From: Clavulina sp. PMI_390
Lineage: Eukaryota; Basidiomycota; Agaricomycetes; Cantharellales; Hydnaceae
NCBI GenBank assembly: GCA_015039315.1
Contig: WIDE01000152.1
Coordinates: forward strand, 24,233 to 41,632
Direction of reading: 5' to 3'
Length of the DNA stretch: 17,400 nucleotides
Part shown: piece by piece, positions 100 through 14,801 of the stretch
How the letters are laid out: every line of letters starts with the position of its first letter
How positions within the stretch are numbered: the first letter of the stretch is position 1
Translations under genes and position numbers: made by a program
The notes under the pieces: model-generated
Seen by the model: only the letters and a program-made list of their open reading frames with translations
Databases searched by the model: none
What the model was told of the DNA's origin: nothing

Positions 100-1255
100 A
101 CCACATACCGATTCATGGTGATGTGCTTGTTGCTGTGAATGTATTTTACTGCCCGTATCTCATCAGATTCACATACCCTTGCAAGAATTTTGGATTTCTT
201 AGTGGTTATGACGGACTCGGCACTGTCACTTCCAGGCTTGGACGCTAGCTTTAGACTCCATCGCTGAAGTTCTTGGCTGGATACCGAAGCTTGACTCGAC
301 GACAACACAGATCCGCCGCCGTTTGCCTAACAGCTCCCAGCAGGTTCCTTCAGTTCATCTGTGAGGGTTTTAATCAATTTTGTTCAAGCCGACAATTACC
401 CCACATTCGCCGCATCGGGGTTCTCTGGAGCGGCGCCGTGTCGACTCGAAGTCAACCTTGAGCTTTTTCTCGACGACCCTGGCCATGAGCCTGTGCTGAC
501 ACCGGTTTCACTAATTGCTCTGGAAAGAAATCCTCATGGGCCTGTTGCGCGGAGGTAATAAATAACTTGTCACGGGCGATCTGCTCTCTATTATTAGATC
601 TATCGAACGGCAGACACTCCGCTTGACTCCCATTTCGATAGTTCCCAGGCTCACAACAACTCAAACTACACCCCCCAGCACACCCTCAATGCAGTGAAAA
701 GGAAGACTCTGATATCTATGATTGTGCACCGTCAAGTGCGTGATATATGCTGAAGATGATCCTCCTTGACTGCGGAGACTGGAAACTTCGATACCGTTTC
801 CTGCCTTGCCCGTCTTTCCACGGCGATCAGGGCGATTATGAATAAATGATCGCAATTTTGTGACTGAAGAGAAGAGCCTACTGGTCAAATTTCGGTGTCT
901 CCACATATGACTGGAAGTCAATGCGCGCGATAGCAAACTTTTTATCGGTGCACCGTCTTCCCGGATTGAAATAACAAAAAGGCATGGGCCTTTGACCGAA
1001 CCTTGCAATCGGCAGACATCTATCCGGACACCTGGTCATCTGCCTATGCAATTGTAAGGCGCAAAACGATTCGTATGTTGTCTCGTTGCATTTTCACTGC
1101 CTGGCCTAGTCACAATTTGCTAGCTATGCTGTATCATCATCTGACCCTGACCGGTTCCATTCCATAGAGCGCCTCAAACATAAAATCTCGTCGTTCTGCG
1201 TCATCCCTTTTGATTTAGGAACCAAGGATCCCTCTCACTTCGCAGACCGTTTGCG
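100..1255. other. intergenic region between the tandem GH5 genes
   Basis: No reading frame here has a recognisable domain, signal peptide or plausible splice pattern; the open frames of up to about 115 codons look like chance. The last 100 bases should contain the promoter of the downstream GH5 gene. No third GH5 copy or transposon relic was seen. Confidence 0.5.
1180..1186 (+). promoter_or_regulatory. TATA-like element of the GH5 gene
   Basis: The sequence ataaaat lies about 75 bp upstream of the GH5 start codon at 1256 and is followed by a mixed C/T-rich leader. Position and composition suit a core promoter, but the motif is common by chance in AT-rich leaders. Confidence 0.3.
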
Positions 1256-2568
1256 ATGCTGTTCCACAAACTGTGCCTTGCATTAGGCGTCGCCTCGGTC
1301 ATCCCGAGCGCATTCGCCGCAAAAGAGATCTATAACACAACCTCTCGTTGGATCGTTGACTCTACTGGCGCTCGCTTCAAGCTTCGATGCGTCAACTGGG
1401 CCGGTCATATGGAGGCCAATGTTCCCGAAGGCCTCCAACACAGACCTATCTCGTACATTGCTTCATGGATCGCGAATGCAGGCTTCAACTGCGTTCGTCT
1501 TACGTATAGCATTGATATGGCCCTTTCCCCCGATATGAGTGTTGAGACGTCGTTTGCCAACGGCGGAGTCAACTCTGGGGCAGGTGCTGGCTCGCTTGAT
1601 GCGCTCTATGCCCAAGCTGTTGTACAGAACCCATTCCTCGCCAATGCTACTGTTCTTGAGACGTTTGGGGCGGTCATCAATGGCCTCGATGCGGTCGGTG
1701 TCAAAGTTGTTCTCGATAACCATGTATCAAGGGCTCAGTGGTGCTGTGACCTCAACGACGGAAACGGATGGTGGGACGAGGCGACATCCGACTATCCTGC
1801 CAACTCTCAGTACTTCATCACCAGTAACTGGCTTGCGGGCCTCAGCGCAATGGCGACCTGGGCAGCTGGGTATGACGCCGTGATTGGTATGTCGATTCGG
1901 AACGAACTCCGAGAGATCCCGATTCTCGAGAGCGAGAGCCCTTGGTACACCTTTGCGCCTCAAGGTGAGTCGAATACGGTGCTCATTATCCTCTTTTCAC
2001 CTCCCCTCTGATTGTTTTCCGTCTATCCCACATCATCGATGCAGGTGCAAGCGCTATCCACAATGCTAATCCCGATTTGCTCATCATGATGGGCGGCCAC
2101 TATGGTGACACTGATCTCTCGATGCTTCGCTCGAACCCTCTCGACAGGAGCGCGTGGCCAAACAAGGTCGTTTGGGAGTACCACACTTACAGTTACAGCG
2201 TGGGGTATGACACAAGTTGGTGCTGGCTTTATGAACAGGAAATGGGGGCCGCCGCCGGGTTCCTCCTCGAACAGAACGAGGAATTCACCGGACCGCTGTG
2301 GGTCAGTGAGTTTGGTTTCGGGATGAATGGCGCGGATGGCTCGCTCTCGAGCGGGGATAGCGATTACCTGTCGTGCCTCATCTCGTATCTCACTGGAAAT
2401 GATGCGGATTGGTCATGGTGGGCTCTTCAGGGTGACTACTACGTCCGTCAGGGCACAGTCTCATACGTCGAGTCTTATGGATTGTTGGACGCGAATTGGA
2501 CCGACTGGCAGAACCCTAATGGCGCATCCCTGCTCGGAGGCATGTGGGATGTGACTCAGGGACCTTAG
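1256..2568 (+). CDS. secreted glycoside hydrolase family 5 enzyme (cellulase-like fold)
   Basis: Two exons, 1256-1964 and 2045-2568, are joined by an 80-nt intron (gtgagt...gcag, phase 1), giving 410 residues. Residues 1-21 form a secretory signal (hydrophobic run LCLALGVASVIPSAFA), so the enzyme is probably exported. GH5 hallmarks seen: an Arg in RLTY (81) at the end of an early strand, the acid/base Glu in RNEL (E217), a conserved His in YHTYSY (283), and the nucleophile Glu in WVSEFG (E325). It should cleave beta-glycosidic bonds by the retaining mechanism; the exact substrate (beta-glucan, mannan, glycolipid) cannot be read from sequence. A second copy ends at position 99. The gene is probably outside the RiPP cluster. 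The start chosen is the first ATG giving a clean signal peptide. Confidence 0.9.
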
Positions 2569-2987: not shown

Positions 2988-4490
2988 TTACTCAATGATG
3001 ACCTTGGTCTCCAAATGCTTCTCCGCCTCCTCCCCGAAGACATCGATTGGCCATTGCAAGCTAGCAAGGACATGCGGGATCACAATTCTAAGCAGCAAGC
3101 GAAATGTGAGATACGGTCAGGTGGTCAGAGAAAATATTCATCTGCGCGCGAAGCGCAACACCAAGGGTGCGAACCTTTTGTTCTCGTTTAAGCCATTGAT
3201 TTTTTGCATGTCCTCAGGCGTCAGCGAATACAACTTGAGATTGGAACTGATTCGCTCTGGATCCGCGGATTTGATATAAAATTCACATTGCCGATGACAA
3301 TCAAGCACGGGTCTATGGAACAAACTCACCTTGTTTGACGGATTTCGGGATGACACTATACCCACGGCCAACTCCCCAGTTTAGTACAATGTTTGCGGGA
3401 GTGGTTCCGGGGTACTTTTCGGTCAATTCTTTAATAACCGGGTCCGCGAGAAGTCGAGCAACTGAGGCTGGAAGCATCAACGCTGTTAGAAACCGTGATC
3501 ACAAATAATACGATTTGCGCGAGGAATGACTTGCGTCTGCCGCCCATCGGTAGATATGCCATGACGTGGATCCCTTCAGACTGGCAATATTCGACGAGGC
3601 CTGGCTGGGAGAAGTAAGGGTGAATCTCGATTTGATTCACTGCCGGCTTAATCCCAGTCAATTCCACAAGCTTTTTCAGTTGCTCCACGTTGAAATTGGA
3701 GACTCCGAGAGTTTTAACCTGAATAGGTGGATAGAACTCAGGCGAGGGGATTGTAGCAGCTCGAGTCCTGGAAAGCTCACTTTGCCTGTCTCGGCAAACT
3801 TTTGCATTGTCAACCAAGTTTCGACAACTGTAACCCCGTGGTCGATGATGGGTGGCTTGGTCTGGGCCATAGCCACGGGCCAATGCATCACTATGGCTTG
3901 CATCAGCACGCTACTTGATGTAACGAGTAGTTGGATACTCACGATAGACATCGAGGTACTCGAGGCCGAGCTGCTCCAAGGTTGTTTCAAACTCTGTTTC
4001 GGCAGCAGCAGCACGGTGCGAAGCATTCCAGAGCTTTCCAGCCGCACATATGAGCCCATGGGTCAAGTTATAGCTCGTGAGATTCATATCCAACCTTGCC
4101 AAGGATACAGAGATCCTCTCGCTTCACAATAGCCGGGATCAGTTTCCGGAAAGCTCGTCCAACCTTGGGTAAGGAACAAAGATTCAGCTGTCAAGATGGT
4201 TATTTTCTTTGAGAAGAGTAGGTGGGCATACCTCATCCTGATTCCCATAGTAGCTGGAGAGGTCAAACAGTCGATAGCCTGATTGTACAGCATACTCAAT
4301 CTGATTATGATATGATGGGATGATTTGGACAAATTAGCCCTTACGATGCAGGAGTGTTACAGGTAGGAGCAGTACTACGAGAGGTACGACTAGCACTTAC
4401 GGCTGCTTCGCCTTCATCGCCATTGGAACCCCAAGTGCCTAACCCGATAGCAGGCATGGTTTCTCCAGTGAGAAGAGGGAATTTTATCAT
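2988..4490 (-). CDS. aldo-keto reductase 1 (AKR superfamily), 9 exons
   Basis: Reconstructed exons on the minus strand: 4490-4401, 4300-4232, 4163-4095, 4033-3943, 3890-3781, 3718-3535, 3482-3330, 3256-3175, 3087-2988, giving 315 residues, normal for the family. It is an NAD(P)H-dependent oxidoreductase of carbonyl groups, probably cytosolic. Visible AKR features: N-terminal MPAIGLGTW, the catalytic tetrad D43, Y48 (in YYGNQ), K76 (before LWN) and H109 (LMHWP), the strand GVSNF, and the cofactor loop IPKSVKQERISSN, whose K-S and R usually hold the NADP phosphate. The intron after exon 6 is GC-AG (gcaagt), and introns 3 and 8 have weak gtt donors. They are accepted because AKR 2 has introns at the same places and because the last exon restores the family's C-terminal WPIDVFGEE. 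Without the last splice the protein would end early at 3138. Substrate unknown. Confidence 0.85.
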
Positions 4491-5746: not shown

Positions 5747-7223
5747 CTACATGAAACGAGACAGGTTAATGAGGCTTGCTGGCGATACTCGTCGTATCAT
5801 TTTAGGCGAAACGCACCTGATCAGAGCTTTTGGTAGCCCAGCCTCATCAGGCTCATCGAAAATACCAATATTCCACTTGAACATCCCCTTCGTAGTGACA
5901 AATCTGATTTGGAACCATACCAGTCTCAATAAGGCAAGAAGAAACAGAACAGGGAAAGCTCACCTCTTCTGGTTGCCCTTTCCGATATCAGTAATCTTCT
6001 GCCTATCCTCAGGTGTGAGCTCAATAACTCGGAAGTTGGACTTAATCCGATCTAAGTACAGGGTTCGTGGCCATCAGACATACGGGTGCTCGAGATAGAT
6101 TTATACTACATGGACACACCGGGAGTAACGGATTTGGGAATCACACTATAACCTCGCGCACGAGCCCAAGCTAGCAGGACTTGAGCGGTCGTTGCGTTAG
6201 GGTAGTTCTTCGTTACCTCATTGACCACTGGGTGATTCATCAACGATGGCCGCTTTTTGGATGCTAAAATGGAGTAAGGCATTAGGGCTGGAAGAATGTA
6301 GGCAGATCTGGACGGACCTTGGCCACCAAGAGGGAAGTAGGCAGTGACGTGAATACCCTCTCGCGCACAGTACTCAAGGAGTTCATCTTGCTGCAGGAAG
6401 GGATGGAGCTCCACCTGGTTGACGGCGGGTTTGATGCCAGTTGCGGCGATGAGTTGCTTCAGGTTCGAGACTGTGAAGTTGGATACTCCAACATTCTTGA
6501 CCTGAGACAATGGACCTATTAGTTATTATTCAAATACATCTTCGAGGATGAATCGCACCTTGCCCGTCTTGAGCATATTGCTCATCGCGATCCATGTCTC
6601 AGCGACCGTCACAGAGTTATCAAGCTCGGTGGAGCCTTTGAGGAATGCGACTGGCCAGTGCATCACTGAGTAAAAGCGAGGTAAGTTGGGATGGAACGGT
6701 TTGCTAAGCAGGAGCAAACCGTACGCCATAAATCCACATAGTCGATCTCAAGCTGCTTGAGCGAACGATCGAGATCTTTGGGGACATTTTCTGGTCGGTG
6801 ATTTGTGTTCCACAACTAATAAAGGGCGATAAGAATGTGGTTGCTTATAGGCTGAGGTGACACTTACCTTGGTTGTAATGAACAGATCTTCGCGTTTTAC
6901 CACAGAGGGGATGACTTTCTTGAGAGCCGCGCCTACCTATTGATGGTCTGTTACTCGTTGCTCGGATTCCAAAAGTAAGGAAGCCCACTCACTTCGTCTT
7001 GGTTCGCGTAGACCAATGCAAGGTCTAGATGCCGATAGCCGGCCCGAATGGCATGCTCGACCTAGAATGTTCCCTTAGTGATGTATTCACGTGGGCAACC
7101 CAGTCATTATTCGACAAGAAGCTTACTTACCGCATGCTCCACTTCTTTCTTCTTGGAAAGGTACGTCCCAAGCCCGGTCACTGGGATCGAACCAACGCCG
7201 TTGCGCAGAGGAGCTGTGGCCAT
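5747..7223 (-). CDS. aldo-keto reductase 2 (AKR superfamily), 9 exons
   Basis: Minus-strand exons: 7223-7131, 7061-6993, 6936-6868, 6815-6725, 6665-6559, 6501-6318, 6263-6120, 6051-5964, 5903-5747, giving 333 residues. It should reduce carbonyls with NAD(P)H in the cytosol. The catalytic tetrad is D44, Y49 (in VYANQDE, where the usual Gly after Tyr is Ala), K77 (TTKLWN) and H110 (LMHWP). GVSNF and the cofactor loop IPKSVTPDRIKSN follow. Most introns fall at the same codon and phase as in AKR 1, and exons 2, 3, 4 and 6 are identical in length, so the two are tandem paralogues. The family C-terminus KWNIGIFDEPDE is followed by about 30 further residues; a GTGCGT just after LIR could be a donor to another terminal exon, so the last residues are uncertain. 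Substrate unknown; its place beside a RiPP locus makes a tailoring role possible. Confidence 0.87.
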
Positions 7224-8040: not shown

Positions 8041-9470
8041 ATGGAGAATACTCTAATTTTTGGTCTTGGAGGGTGCGTTGGTTGACATTCAAGCCCTACT
8101 GCGTCTGGTGTTGAACTTTTGCTCGCTTGTAGCATCGGAGCCGTGTTTGGCCTTCTCCTGCAGCGATCCAAGCGAACGACCCTTTCGACAGTAGCGCGGT
8201 CTAATTTCGGCGTCGTCCAAAAGGATGGCATCAAGGTTCAGAGCACACAGATAGACGGAGGCGGCACCGTCACCTTCGACCGCGTCTATCCGGCCAATGC
8301 ACACCAACAAGCACGCAATGCTCGGGCTTCGGGATCATCAGCAATTCCTTTCTCCTACGTGGTCGTCGCCACCAAGCTCGTCGCTGACACCAAGCCATCA
8401 TTAGTAGAATCCTTGGAGCCGTTCATTGCCCCAGGGAAATCGACAATCGTCCTCATCCAGAATGGTGTAGGTATAGAAGACGAGATACAAGCTCGATGGC
8501 CAGGTAATCTTGTCCTCACAAGCATTGTGAGTTCTCTCGTCCTTCGACTTCTATACTTCCTAACCTCTCATTCTATGTTCATTCTTCATTTGGGGTCTCG
8601 CCATAGGCTTTTTTCCCTGCGACCCAAACCGAGCCCGGACTTGTCGTTCATCCTGGAGGCCTTTTCTTCAGATGCGGGCCGTTCCATTCCAATGGATCTC
8701 CCGAGTGCTCGCCGCGCGAGAAGGAGCGGATTGACACTTTTATGGAGATGTGCAGAATTGGAGGATGCGAAACGGAAACCGAGTACAACCATGTCTACAT
8801 GCAAGCTCAAAGATGGACGAAAATTGCCTGGTGAGTTCCAAGCCGTGTATATTGTCCCAAAGCGTTCAGTTATATCTGAAAGCTTCGCCCGCAAATAGGA
8901 ATGCAAGCTGGAATTCTGTGACGACTCTCGCTGATCTTGACAGCGCAGCATATCTTGCCGCCTCGTCCTCTAGCGAGGCCCTCGCTCGTCGTATTATGCG
9001 GGAGGTTGTCCTTGTCGCTCGAGGACTCGGCGTAGAGATCGATCCGCTCGAACCAGGAGTGCTTAACCCTGAGGAAGCAAAACGGGTCGCAAAAGCGTTG
9101 GGCTGCACCGAACGACTGGATGACATGCTTGTCAATCGCCTCAAAAACTTTCAGAATATCAATACCTCTACCCGAACAGACGTCCTTGAGGGGAGAGCTC
9201 TCGAGTATGAGGTGAGTAGTGTGGTGCTTACCACGCAATTAGTAGTTGACATGTCTAATTGCTTTTCTCACTCAAATTAATTAGGTGATCTGGGGCAACC
9301 CACTTAAGCACGCAAAGAGGCTAGGGATCGAGGTGCCTGTTTTCGAAACAGTCGCTATCCTTCTCGAGGCGATCGATGCACGTAATAGAGGGAAGGTCAA
9401 AGTAATGATCCGGTATGTCAATCATGTCGAGGTGTGTACGATACGTGCCGATAACAATGCATCCATTTAG
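8041..9470 (+). CDS. ketopantoate reductase-like (ApbA/PanE family) oxidoreductase
   Basis: Five exons: 8041-8072, 8133-8526, 8607-8830, 8899-9211, 9285-9470, giving 382 residues. The short first exon completes the Rossmann dinucleotide motif TLIFGLGGIGAVFG (GxGxxG) across the first splice. Then come VVVATKLVADT, a conserved QNGVG, and the C-terminal helical domain with the family Lys in RWTKIAWNASWN (K214, followed by conserved Asn residues). GRALEYEVIWGNPLKHAKRLGIEVP follows, of which the GR, Glu and the A..LG...P pattern are typical. The family reduces 2-dehydropantoate to pantoate with NADPH, but fungal genomes carry many divergent members of unknown substrate, so primary vitamin synthesis is not assured. 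It is a bit longer than usual: about 18 residues follow the normal end (DARNRGK) and may reflect an unrecognised final intron. Its stop lies 14 bp from that of the convergent UstYa gene, which could link it to the cluster. Confidence 0.85.
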
Positions 9471-9484
9471 GGCAAAGATCTGAT

Positions 9485-10706
9485 CTACTCCATGATAACG
9501 GGAGGTGTATGCACCCAGTCGTCTGGAACGCGGACAGTGGAGTTTATGCGGTACGGTGGCTTCCATTTCTTTCCCCATTCCTGGATCGCGCGAAAGTCTG
9601 CGCATGTCTGTTAAGTTGAGAGCGCCATAGGGCACATTTTGTATGGTTAGGATTTCTGCTCGCGATAATGAATGGAGTAGAGGGTTTGGGATTTACGTGA
9701 ACAACATCGATCTTCGGGCCACTTCTCTTTTGAGCCTCGTCCCACTGCCATACAATGGGAGTGATATCAGGGTTGCACCTATAGTATGTCCAATAGCATT
9801 AGGAAAGTAGAAGATATATTGGAGAAGTAGCAAGCGTACATGAGTGACTCGCGAATCGAGTTGAGACAGTGATCGATATGATCGTACGCTGGGTCATCCG
9901 AGGGAGCGAGCGGTAAGATATCATGAGTGTGAACTTCGCCTTCTCGAGGGCCTTTGACCCTGTGGCGGATCATATCCTAGAGAGAATGATCAAGAAAAGG
10001 TCATAACCCACGAGGTCCGAGAACCGGAGGTGTTTAGTAGATAGGCTCACAAGACAATGTAGTTGATGGAAGACGTCAAGGTCTATAAGGTATCGTGGCT
10101 CGCCTAAGCGCTCAACATCATTTTGAATGCGCTCCGTTCGATTTGGCAGAGCTTCAATCATCTTGCGCGGCAATCCTGCCCATGTATCTTCAAATCCATG
10201 GAGAAGAGTAGACCAATATTATTAGGCAACGTTGGTAGATGCAGGCTGCGATACCCACAAGGCATATATAAGTTAGCCCACAGCATGTCCCTCGCCTCCG
10301 TTCTGGGCCCATGGTATGGGGACGTCTCGGTGAAACGTTTTGAGAGCCTGTGCTGATGAGTTAAGGCCTCGGCAGCAGGTGCTATATCGATAGCGAAAAC
10401 TTGGTATTGATTGACACGCAAGAGTGAACGAGGAATCGTCTCACAGTACACCGGCTTGACCCCTCTCCATTGGATCCGCGTTTGCTGGCTTAGACCGTCA
10501 ATCGCGTTCATCACCCCATAAGTGACAGAGAGAAGCATGTTGAATATGACAGATATGGTAGCGATAAACTTGAGACGGCGATTGCGCTGACGGAGAGATA
10601 TAATGACATCTTCGGGATCATTTTCCTTTTCCCATGGCTCAACTAGAGGTTTGTCTATTGATGCTGAGGTGGTGTCCAGCAGTGGCTCGTATCGACTAGT
10701 TGACAT
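9485..10706 (-). CDS. UstYa-family (DUF3328) oxidative cyclase A
   Basis: Six exons: 10706-10445, 10381-10259, 10187-10051, 9976-9840, 9778-9697, 9607-9485, giving 287 residues. Order: a cytosolic N-terminal tail (YEPLLDT), one membrane segment at about 46-66, the family motif WRGVKPVYSPA (completed across the first splice), SPYHGPRTEARDMLW, then the paired motifs HQLHC (169-173) and HIDHC (207-211), then RESLMCNPDITPIVWQWDEA and VVHTCADF. The two HxxHC motifs are the signature of UstYa proteins, which catalyse oxidative ring formation on ribosomal peptides in ustiloxin, phomopsin and asperipin pathways. It probably works on the precursor at 14356 in the secretory lumen. Exon 2's 3' border (gtgggt donor) is the least certain join. 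The join at 174 (after HQLHCL) and at 220 (in RESLM) are shared with cyclase B. Confidence 0.9.
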
Positions 10707-12036: not shown

Positions 12037-13171
12037 CTAATCAACAGGTCGGATCTTGTCGAGATAGCTATAGTCGTAATTGTGCATGGCGTTGACGTCA
12101 ACGGAAACGTAGTTTTCTATCACGTTCTTGTAAGGCTCCTTGGGGTAGACCAGATCATCGGGTGCGTAATGCCAGCGGTCGAATCGGGTTTTGGCGGTAT
12201 ATTTCCTTCCAAATTCCGCGATCGTGTTCCAGTTCTTGCATGTGTGAACATTGGTGAAATGAGGGTCGGAAACCCGAGCCTCAGGGGACCATATCCATCG
12301 ATTTGGAGTTGTATCAGCATTGCACCTGCAGTGAAGATATTAGACTGAGTTTATTTGCTAGTCGAGCGGTTGGGGTAGACGCACATGAGGCTTTCGCGAA
12401 TGCTGTTGGCGCAGTGGTCAAGATGCTCGGTATGATCGACACCGATGTGGAACGTAAGATTATTGCGAGGATAACGATCGGGATACAGGCTCTTCCGCAG
12501 GCCATTCTACACATAGATTCAGAATTCATGGCCTTCCTCATATGATCAGATCATCTTACCAGACAGTGGAGCTGATGGAACACGTCCAGTGTAACCATAT
12601 AGTGATCCTGGTCGTCGTAATATTTCACCGTTGGTCCTTCGAGCTTGGCGGCCATACTCTTCGGAATCCCCGAAAGTCCGACTGTGCCAAGTGAGACAGC
12701 CATGTCAGAGATAAACATTTTCGCGATGGAGTGGTTCCAATACATACATTGATACAGATCGTCCCATGCTTTGTCGACCGCGTCGGTTGGTGGACCCTTG
12801 TACGGAGTGATATCTGGAATGTCAGGGAACCTGACGTAGACATGCTCGATGTTTTCATCGATGGGTGCTAATGGTTGTACAGTGGTCAGAGCGATAAAAG
12901 CGAAGGATAACTTCAAAAGGAGCTCACTCCAGACTGGACGGACGCCATTCCACCGGACGGAGTTCTGAACTCGCTCCCGCACAGCAGCAAGTGCTATCAT
13001 GAAGCAGACATTGGCGACGACAGAAAGACATAGCAAGGCGCGCTCCCAGTTCCATTGGCGCCTGGATGGAAGCTCGTGATGCTGTCTGAAGTCTTCATCC
13101 GCTAAAGTGTCATGATCCAGGCTCGACTTGCTAAGTAGAGGTTGCTGATAAACGGCAGACGAGTCGGGCAT
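12037..13171 (-). CDS. UstYa-family (DUF3328) oxidative cyclase B
   Basis: Five exons: 13171-12928, 12867-12748, 12681-12560, 12506-12385, 12325-12037, giving 298 residues. Order: cytosolic tail, one membrane segment at about 43-64, VRWNGVRPVW joined by splicing to TPIDENIEHVYVRF, TPYKGPPTDAVDKAWDDLY, then HQLHC (157-161), NGLRKSLYP, HLDHC (190-194), RESLMCNADTTP and VHTCKNW. The paired HxxHC motifs mark it as a peptide-cyclising UstYa oxidase. Four of its intron positions and phases match cyclase A, so the two share ancestry, but the sequences are well diverged and B has a longer C-terminal tail rich in Tyr, Asp and Asn while lacking A's last intron. It is the gene nearest the precursor and is transcribed away from it; it probably acts on the precursor in the secretory pathway. 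The start is the first ATG and gives a normal-length tail. Confidence 0.92.
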
Positions 13172-14355
13172 GGTGTGGTTGCACGAGACAAGAGACGAAG
13201 TGAAGGGAGTGTGAGGGGATAGGCGCCGAATGCACGCCCATTCTCGATGCAGTGATACCCAAATACCACCTGGAACTGTTGCTTGAGTGGAATAAGCTGA
13301 ATTGTCATTTTAGGACCATTGAGATGAGATCATGGATTATATAAAGTCATATCAGCTGTACCGCAGCCCTGCTATCAAGCACGCTTTGTATGGGTGCATT
13401 GTCCGATACAGTTGTTGGTGTGAACCATGCGGCTGCAGTTTTCGGGTTGTTGTGATTGTTTGTTTGCCTTTACGCCACTTCCAAAGTTCGAAGCTTCAGA
13501 TCAGTCTGTATTTTTGAGCCTCTGCTCATCTATACTCACTAACGTCTGTTAAAAATCGCTGAGAGATTGAATTTATCAGTCCCTAGTAGCTCGTCTGCCT
13601 ATGACATCTACTAGTATCATATGCTCATCGGCCAACTTCGCTCCACAACGATTATGAATTCGTTCCTGGAGAGGGGTCCCGAGTTTGCATCTGCCAATAT
13701 GACAAATATATTTCTTCGCTATTGATGAATATTGCCTCTGCATGACATGTTTCCTTCATCAGTGCCGCCATCACTGCCATTGCTTCGATGGTAGCTCAGC
13801 CTATTGACTTGTCATCTTGTCGACAACTAGCTCAAGGGTCAACATATTAATCTTTGCATCCGGTATTCACTCCTTCTCCTCGGGACGGGTATAATCCCAG
13901 CTAAGCTGAACTATCGGAGTATAACCACCTTCTCAACACGATGACGAATATGTCGCATCTAGCTTCTCAAATATCGTCTACAAGCGATGTTCAGACTTGA
14001 ATGGAACGAAATTAACTGTGTGGAAGCAACGGGGATCGAAACGCCCGTGTCTTGAAGCTCATTGACAACACCCACATGGCGAACACCCTCAACTCGGGGC
14101 CAACTCTTCCGTAATACCTCGGCCCCAATCGTATCACTTGAGCTGACTGATTAAATTCAATGAAAATCATTATCGTGATCTTTCAGCACTCGTGTCTTCC
14201 CGGTCAGGAGTGAGGGTGCTTGGAGAATATAACGCGCAAGTGGTTGAAGATACGTCCGCGCAGCCCCCTCTCACCGTTCAGGTAGTTATTATCCTCACTA
14301 TTGCAGGTTACTGGGTGTTAATCCCCCTTTCAAACTCTGTAGCCTATTCCTCAAT
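13172..14355. other. divergent promoter region between cyclase B and the precursor gene
   Basis: This 1.18-kb stretch separates two genes transcribed away from each other, so it probably holds both promoters and any cluster-specific operator. A TATA-type tatataaag at 13337-13345 (near-palindromic, so usable by the minus strand) is about 170 bp upstream of cyclase B. A short GC-rich inverted repeat, GGGGCC (14096-14101) and GGCCCC (14121-14126), lies about 230-260 bp upstream of the precursor ATG. No gene is seen; the frame at 13332-13517 has no support. Confidence 0.45.
13337..13345 (-). promoter_or_regulatory. TATA-like element upstream of cyclase B
   Basis: The + strand reads tatataaag; the complement contains TTATATAA, so either strand could use it. 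At about 170 bp from the cyclase B start codon it is a reasonable core promoter candidate. Confidence 0.35.
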
Positions 14356-14801
14356 ATGAAGCCTTCATCGACCATCGTTCTACTTTGTGCTCTCATCTCC
14401 ACTGCTCTCGCAGCCCCAATCAAGGTAAACTTGATGTTGCAACAATCCTTGCCCTTCGCTTATTTAAAAATCTTTTGGCTGTCTGCTGACAGCGCGAGGA
14501 GGCAGTAACCCCCTCGGAAGACGCTGTAACTCCCGTGGATGACCTCCTGAACGGATCATACTACGGCGTTGCGAAGCGCGAGGAAGACATCGCTTCTCCC
14601 ATCGACGAGCTCCTGGATGGCTCCTATTACGGCGTTGCCAAACGCGAGGAGGATGTTGCTTCTCCTATTGACGAGCTCCTGGATGGCTCATACTATGGTG
14701 TCGCTAAGCGTGAGGAGGATGTGGTCTCTCCTGTAGATGACCTGCTCAATGGCTCGTATTATGGAGTGGCTAAACGCGAGGATGGCGCTGAAGCGGCATA
14801 A
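14356..14801 (+). CDS. dikaritin-type RiPP precursor peptide (secreted, Kex2-processed, four core repeats)
   Basis: Two exons, 14356-14424 and 14493-14801, flank a 68-nt intron (gtaaac...gacag, phase 0), giving 125 residues. Residues 1-20 are a clear signal peptide (IVLLCALISTALAA). After APIK the splice makes the first Lys-Arg. Four 22-residue units follow without gaps (31-52, 53-74, 75-96, 97-118). Each has an acidic spacer, roughly EEDxxSPxD(D/E)LL, then (N/D)GSYYGVA and KR. A short tail EDGAEAA ends it. This is the architecture of ustiloxin-type precursors: ER import, Kex2 cutting after KR, and a Tyr-containing core modified by UstYa enzymes, two of which lie upstream. The core most likely lies within GSYYGVA; its exact ends need chemistry. 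All four cores are the same from Gly to Ala, so one main product is expected. Confidence 0.9.
14514..14777 (+). repeat. four tandem 66-bp coding repeats in the RiPP precursor
   Basis: Units at 14514-14579, 14580-14645, 14646-14711 and 14712-14777 have an exact 66-bp period with no indels. Units 2 and 3 are closest (IDELLDGS), while units 1 and 4 share VDDLLNGS. Synonymous differences within the conserved SYYGVAKR stretch (for example tactac, tattac, tactat, tattat) show that the peptide is conserved beyond the DNA, that is, under purifying selection. Confidence 0.95.

Follow-up and report, generated by a model that had tools for sequence, protein, structure and literature searches.

A GSYYG-core repeat precursor gene accompanied by two UstYa-type genes, with three paralogous modules, in the basidiomycete Clavulina sp. 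PMI_390

Results

A repeat precursor gene with four KR-ended units

The window, i.e. the whole stretch of 17,400 nucleotides of the Clavulina sp. PMI_390 genome that was analysed (on contig C60), contains a two-exon precursor gene and, 1.2-4.9 kb from it, two UstYa-type genes (Table 1). A preliminary description of this DNA had noted a signal peptide, an intron and an acidic spacer, and all three could be read, in exon 1, between the exons and in exon 2, respectively. The putative N-terminal signal peptide is typical by reading and is kept in three paralogues on contig C2. As in Kex2-processed repeat proteins (KEPs), the repeats are separated by dibasic sites, and all four units end in SYYGVA-KR, as had been described; an additional dibasic KR, split by the intron, lies at the junction of the leader and exon 2. 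The array is the only one detected in the window by Tandem Repeats Finder. The units had further been called four exact 22-residue repeats. The core spacing, exactly 66 bp in all four units, agrees with this, but only GSYYGVAKR is invariant (4/4 units, the preceding residue being N, D, D and N), the acidic spacers between the cores are similar rather than exact, and unit 1 is six residues longer than the others. The three C2 paralogues, whose signal exon is related and whose intron falls at the same position, support the gene model.

Table 1. Features of the precursor/UstYa locus and of the paralogous modules (positions without a contig name are those of the window)
Feature	Position	Strand	Remarks
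Precursor exon 1, signal peptide (by reading) ending APIK, MKPSSTIVLLCALISTALAAPIK	14356..14424	+	related exons in three C2 paralogues
Intron, 68 bp, GT-AG, phase 0, splits K/R dibasic	14425..14492	+	identical place in three C2 paralogues
Precursor exon 2, four spacer and core units and a short tail, stop included	14493..14801	+	
Core 1, NGSYYGVA-KR	14550..14579	+	
Core 2, DGSYYGVA-KR	14616..14645	+	
Core 3, DGSYYGVA-KR	14682..14711	+	
Core 4, NGSYYGVA-KR	14748..14777	+	
UstYa-A, hydrophobic N-terminal stretch, HQLHC and HLDHC, four introns, 298 aa	12037..13171	-	spliced alignment, full length; PF11807
UstYa-B, HQLHC and HIDHC, five introns in aligned part	about 9485..10706	-	both ends read by eye
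Divergent intergenic region, UstYa-A/precursor, 1184 bp	13172..14355		
Module 1 precursor, 16 units DGSYYG(TV or SL)-[KR]R	C2:49798-50893	-	
Module 1 UstYa-A	C2:52271-53417		
Module 1 UstYa-B	C2, near 54.4-55.3 kb		
Module 2 precursor, 8 units TAYGGE-[KR]R	C2:59171-59768	-	
Module 2 UstYa-A	C2:60901-62024		
Module 2 UstYa-B	C2, near 63.0-63.9 kb		
Module 3 precursor, 5 TAYGGE-[KR]R units and a degenerate sixth	C2:91252-91712	+	
Module 3 UstYa-A	C2:90143-89020		
Module 3 UstYa-B			two copies flank N gap

In pairwise comparisons of the four units, the nine GSYYGVAKR codons differ by 38 synonymous and 0 nonsynonymous changes (pS 0.905, pN 0), and the nine codons preceding them by 27 synonymous and 20 nonsynonymous changes (pS 0.628, pN 0.168). 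Because the GSYYGVAKR codons differ only synonymously, the peptide is under selection: the repeats are old in DNA and constant in peptide, and purifying selection on the core is strong. The block kept in the SYYG precursors of this genome is P[VI]D..L[DN]GSYYG, with L or F preceding the L, and the functional core could therefore be SYYG, YG plus two residues or something longer. Of the core (N/D)GSYYGVA first proposed, GSYYG is conserved but the final VA is not, the SYYG paralogue on C2 having TV or SL in its place.

Two UstYa-type genes adjoin the precursor

UstYa-A scores 56.3 against the 25-bit cut-off of PF11807. The best PF11807 profile match of UstYa-B stays below that cut-off (22.5 of 25 bits), and its ORFs gave no Pfam family; it was assigned as UstYa because of its 33.6% identity to UstYa-A over 223 residues and because of its C2 paralogues, three of four of which pass the cut-off. 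A DUF3328/UstYa gene adjoining the precursor and two HXXHC metal motifs in the UstYa protein are both dikaritin features, and the pair of motifs is present in UstYa-A and UstYa-B alike. The secreted, Kex2-type, multi-core precursor beside two UstYa-type genes recognised in the preliminary description is supported by these results. No relative of solved structure was found for UstYa-A by sequence (best E 0.35), and its AlphaFold model was poor (mean pLDDT 52.6) and was discarded for fold search. For UstYa-A, the public model P0002 (window 12868-12927) apparently begins downstream of the first Met and apparently keeps the first intron, which is removed in the spliced alignment.

To the left of UstYa-B lie an ApbA reductase, two aldo-keto reductase matches and a GH5 enzyme. 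Relatives at E<=1e-4 in 60 kb of C2 were found for 16 of the 277 window ORFs of at least 40 aa, and all of these map to the precursor or to a UstYa gene, in sense or antisense. The aldo-keto reductases, ApbA reductase and GH5 enzyme, which have no relatives in these 60 kb, were rejected as core members of the module, and, judged by this comparison, window genes other than the precursor and the UstYa pair probably lie outside it. The aldo-keto reductase matches are at window 3431-3910 and 6106-6522 on the - strand. GH5 genes are duplicated on C60 (window 1214-2568 and C60:6363-7863, two pieces being 83-85% identical), and the contig has genes for ApbA-type reductases at three places (window 8086-9280, C60:8718-9885 and C60:10712-11907; two Pfam-tested, the third by blastp), which together point to local duplication. 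The DUF6534 family, which is biased towards basidiomycetes, has 22 matches in the genome, 20 of them over the cut-off, and this fits a basidiomycete host.

We found no tyrosinase near any module, the five genome matches falling on C113 (four) and at C198:176.7k (one), and no methyltransferase, transporter or peptidase among a selection of 39 ORFs examined with Pfam. A search for the kexin P domain gave 0 matches, for which an intron-split gene could account. The older definition of dikaritin clusters by Ding et al., as quoted in PMC12048977, with a tyrosinase, methyltransferase, transporter or peptidase in the cluster, does not describe this locus as far as the selected ORFs show, its N stretches excepted. 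Such stretches flank the window on the left (C60:23112-24232, 1121 bases) and on the right (C60:41633-47048, 5416 bases), so that further neighbour genes are possible there.

The three-gene module is repeated on contig C2

Three further precursor/UstYa-A/UstYa-B modules with the same divergent layout are found on C2 of the same genome. The 23-residue signal exons of the C2 precursors share 14, 12 and 10 residues with that of the window precursor, the intron splits K/R at the same place in all four full precursors, and precursor and UstYa-A diverge in all four modules across 1184 (window), 1377, 1132 and 1108 bp. The modules arose by duplication and hence are not four independent cases. The two TAYGGE modules, 2 and 3, are inverted near-duplicates (UstYa-A 94.7% and UstYa-B 96.0% identical). 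At C2:57992-58207, next to 10 N of an assembly gap, there is also a fragment of one more TAYGG precursor. As to the intergenic regions, a common promoter motif was rejected: the four regions share one 8-mer, which was equalled by 26 of 200 shuffles.

We scanned for repeats in sequence of C60 outside the window and around the UstYa genes on C2, C237 and C198; further repeat precursors were found on C2 only. Two more UstYa pairs are present at C237:38.2-40.5k and C198:125.3-127.5k, with no repeat precursor near them in the 40 and 30 kb scanned, respectively. Comparison of exon 2 with its own genome gave 7 matches, only to itself and to the C2 SYYG array; the TAYGG precursors were found through the repeat scan. 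In an unrooted UstYa tree of 11 rows (leaving out a fifth UstYa-B, which an N gap at C2:87 kb interrupts), the split among the UstYa-A proteins matches the core classes, a weak test in view of the 94.7-96.0% identity of modules 2 and 3 and of weak rooting. By raw identity, the UstYa-A of module 1 is closer to that of module 2 (71.6%) than to that of the window (68.4%).

Across the four precursors, 34 repeat units were counted, omitting three tails, one stretch upstream of the module 3 gene and the three units of the fragment. YGxx[KR]R ends 33 of the 34, and P[VI]D is present in 31; the last unit of module 3 has neither, and two others have FPD or PAD instead of P[VI]D. Because 33/34 units end in YGxx[KR]R, the SYYG and TAYGG classes share a Tyr-Gly ahead of the dibasic site; the two core residues that follow it vary (VA, TV, SL and GE). 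The pattern TAYTAYGGNNNNNNNAARMG was tried genome-wide and rejected, as it gave 30 matches, 19 of them in two arrays, and its reversed control gave 23.

Discussion

The window gene is a real, selected, UstYa-linked repeat precursor. We consider it probable that it encodes a Kex2-processed precursor of the dikaritin (ustiloxin/asperipin) type, which is modified by UstYa enzymes and yields a small cyclic peptide. We infer the order of steps, the cross-link, the cyclisation, the trimming, the product and its role. The signal peptide would take the precursor into the secretory pathway, where two membrane-anchored, lumen-facing UstYa enzymes would oxidise the tyrosines of each unit using copper and oxygen. 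The Tyr of the conserved YGxx-KR would be the target, most likely in a Tyr ether cross-link, and P[VI]D followed by F or L, common to the SYYG and TAYGG classes, may be the stretch that the enzymes recognise, both assignments resting on conservation among the units. As the KR sites suggest, kexin would then cut after KR and a Kex1-type carboxypeptidase would take off KR, and more trimming would release a small cyclic peptide containing SYYGVA. Features of this kind have been described for the DUF3328 enzyme CctR, which is membrane-associated with a lumenal catalytic part, depends on copper and dioxygen and has in its HxxHC pair a binuclear copper centre, mutants of which lose activity (PMC12435403). 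Because DUF3328 enzymes have also been linked to hydroxylation and halogenation (PMC12435403), cyclisation is not the sole outcome to be considered. In TAYGGE, moreover, the second position after Tyr is occupied by Gly, a residue lacking a beta-carbon, and an ustiloxin-like link between Tyr(1) and residue(3) therefore cannot be general to all classes.

Among characterised systems, asperipin-2a of Aspergillus flavus (aprA, aprY, aprR, aprT) resembles the Clavulina locus in that a UstYa homologue adjoins the precursor, the core contains YY and the cluster has no tyrosinase, one UstYa-type enzyme being credited with the bicyclisation (PMC6514808). It differs in having one UstYa instead of two, the core FYYTGY, an ascomycete host, and transporter and isoflavone-reductase genes, neither of which was recognised here (PMC6514808). 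The ustiloxin B cluster (ustA, ustYa, ustYb, ustQ) likewise has two mutually homologous UstYa genes beside a repeat precursor with a signal peptide, and that precursor has 16 repeats (PMC10512285), as does the SYYG paralogue on C2; unlike here, it needs the tyrosinase ustQ and several tailoring genes, and its core is YAIG in an ascomycete (PMC6514808). The comparison with known UstYa precursors in the preliminary description thus holds for the shared design, but its comparison set was ascomycete and the host here is a basidiomycete (Cantharellales). According to a 2022 review on filamentous fungi or ascomycetes, five dikaritins had been reported (PMC10512285), and in a 2025 paper they are treated as belonging to Ascomycota (PMC12048977). 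UstYa-like genes as such are on record from Pleurotus, where 6 of 16 are developmentally expressed (PMC8893723). In the survey of 1461 fungal strains by Umemura 2020, 1758 of 7878 KEPs had DUF3328 among the 15 nearest genes, 1647/5372 in Ascomycota versus 103/1680 in Basidiomycota, so that secreted repeat precursors of the present kind had already been counted there, and the author suggested that cyclisation might hardly occur in Basidiomycota or that its factor might differ (PMC7329392). Among them the Sistotremastrum type S-5 is Tyr-containing, with DUF3328 in 8 of 12 cases; the main text of this source mentions neither Clavulina nor Cantharell-, and its supplement may still list the present gene (PMC7329392).

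In a different reading, Kex2/Kex1, perhaps with a Ste13-like dipeptidase, yield unmodified signalling or defence peptides of ~20 residues and the proximity of the UstYa genes is irrelevant. In its favour, all but the 103 of 1680 basidiomycete KEPs lack a DUF3328 gene among the 15 nearest (PMC7329392), and agaricomycete KEP peptides studied so far have been termed minimally modified (PMC9769878). Consistent with such linear peptides, EA, a Ste13-like X-A dipeptide, opens 8 of the 16 units of the C2 SYYG paralogue directly behind the dibasic site, but an X-A or X-P start after KR, as in alpha-pheromone-like KEPs, is found in 0/4 window units. We regard this reading as unlikely, since in all four modules, which are spread over two contigs (duplication-related and not independent), the precursor is accompanied by the same UstYa pair, and the UstYa pairs of C237 and C198 stand without a repeat precursor in the stretches scanned. 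In favour of the dikaritin-type reading, the survey found Tyr-containing repeats more often where a KEP has DUF3328 neighbours (65.6% versus 38.2%), and it gives no such neighbour for any KEP with a yeast alpha-factor annotation (PMC7329392).

That the array is a spurious or decayed repeat, either a tandem duplication that serves no function or a surface peptide with a structural role, for example a repellent, would fit the absence of any homologue at E<=1 in protein databases, among 1870 candidates for exon 2 and 7995 scored for most of the C2 SYYG paralogue, searches that also missed the genome's own precursors and so had no positive control. We judge it highly improbable, because the core has zero nonsynonymous against saturated synonymous change and the signal exon has related counterparts in the paralogues, where the intron also sits at the same position.

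The core had been thought undescribed, and our literature search agrees: GSYYG, SYYGVA and SYYGTV were not found for fungi (by title), nor was SYYG with fungal cyclic peptides, a bare supplementary listing being possible. The system is known by kind; what specialists would not expect is that the module occurs fourfold and with two core classes. UstYa-accompanied precursors are a small minority in Basidiomycota and are uncharacterised there in the literature examined, and four naturally varied modules with two core classes make basidiomycete cyclisation, the question raised by Umemura 2020 (PMC7329392), directly testable. The shared flanking residues, too, suggest in concrete terms how substrates may be recognised by UstYa enzymes. 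We tentatively propose, as something rather short of an even chance, that Clavulina has an expanded basidiomycete dikaritin-like family in which the UstYa-A/UstYa-B pair, the P[VI]D plus F/L recognition stretch and the YGxx-KR end stayed fixed and the core was switched between SYYG and TAYGG in duplicated modules. If so, its members would be, to our knowledge, the first UstYa-cross-linked ribosomal peptides known from a basidiomycete, and the cross-link would be unlike that of ustiloxin at least in the TAYGGE class, where there is no side chain two residues after Tyr.

For the candidate products, [M+H]+ values were calculated for the linear, -2H and -4H forms. Those of EEDIASPIDELLDGSYYGVA are 2155.9917, 2153.9761 and 2151.9604, and those of DGSYYGVA 831.3519, 829.3363 and 827.3206. 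Masses of SYYGVA (659.3035, 657.2879 and 655.2722), YYGVA or GSYYGVA minus 2 or 4 H presuppose trimming, to which no peptidase is assigned here. For the paralogue peptide DGSYYGTV, which is isobaric with DGSYYGSL, the values are 861.3625, 859.3468 and 857.3312.
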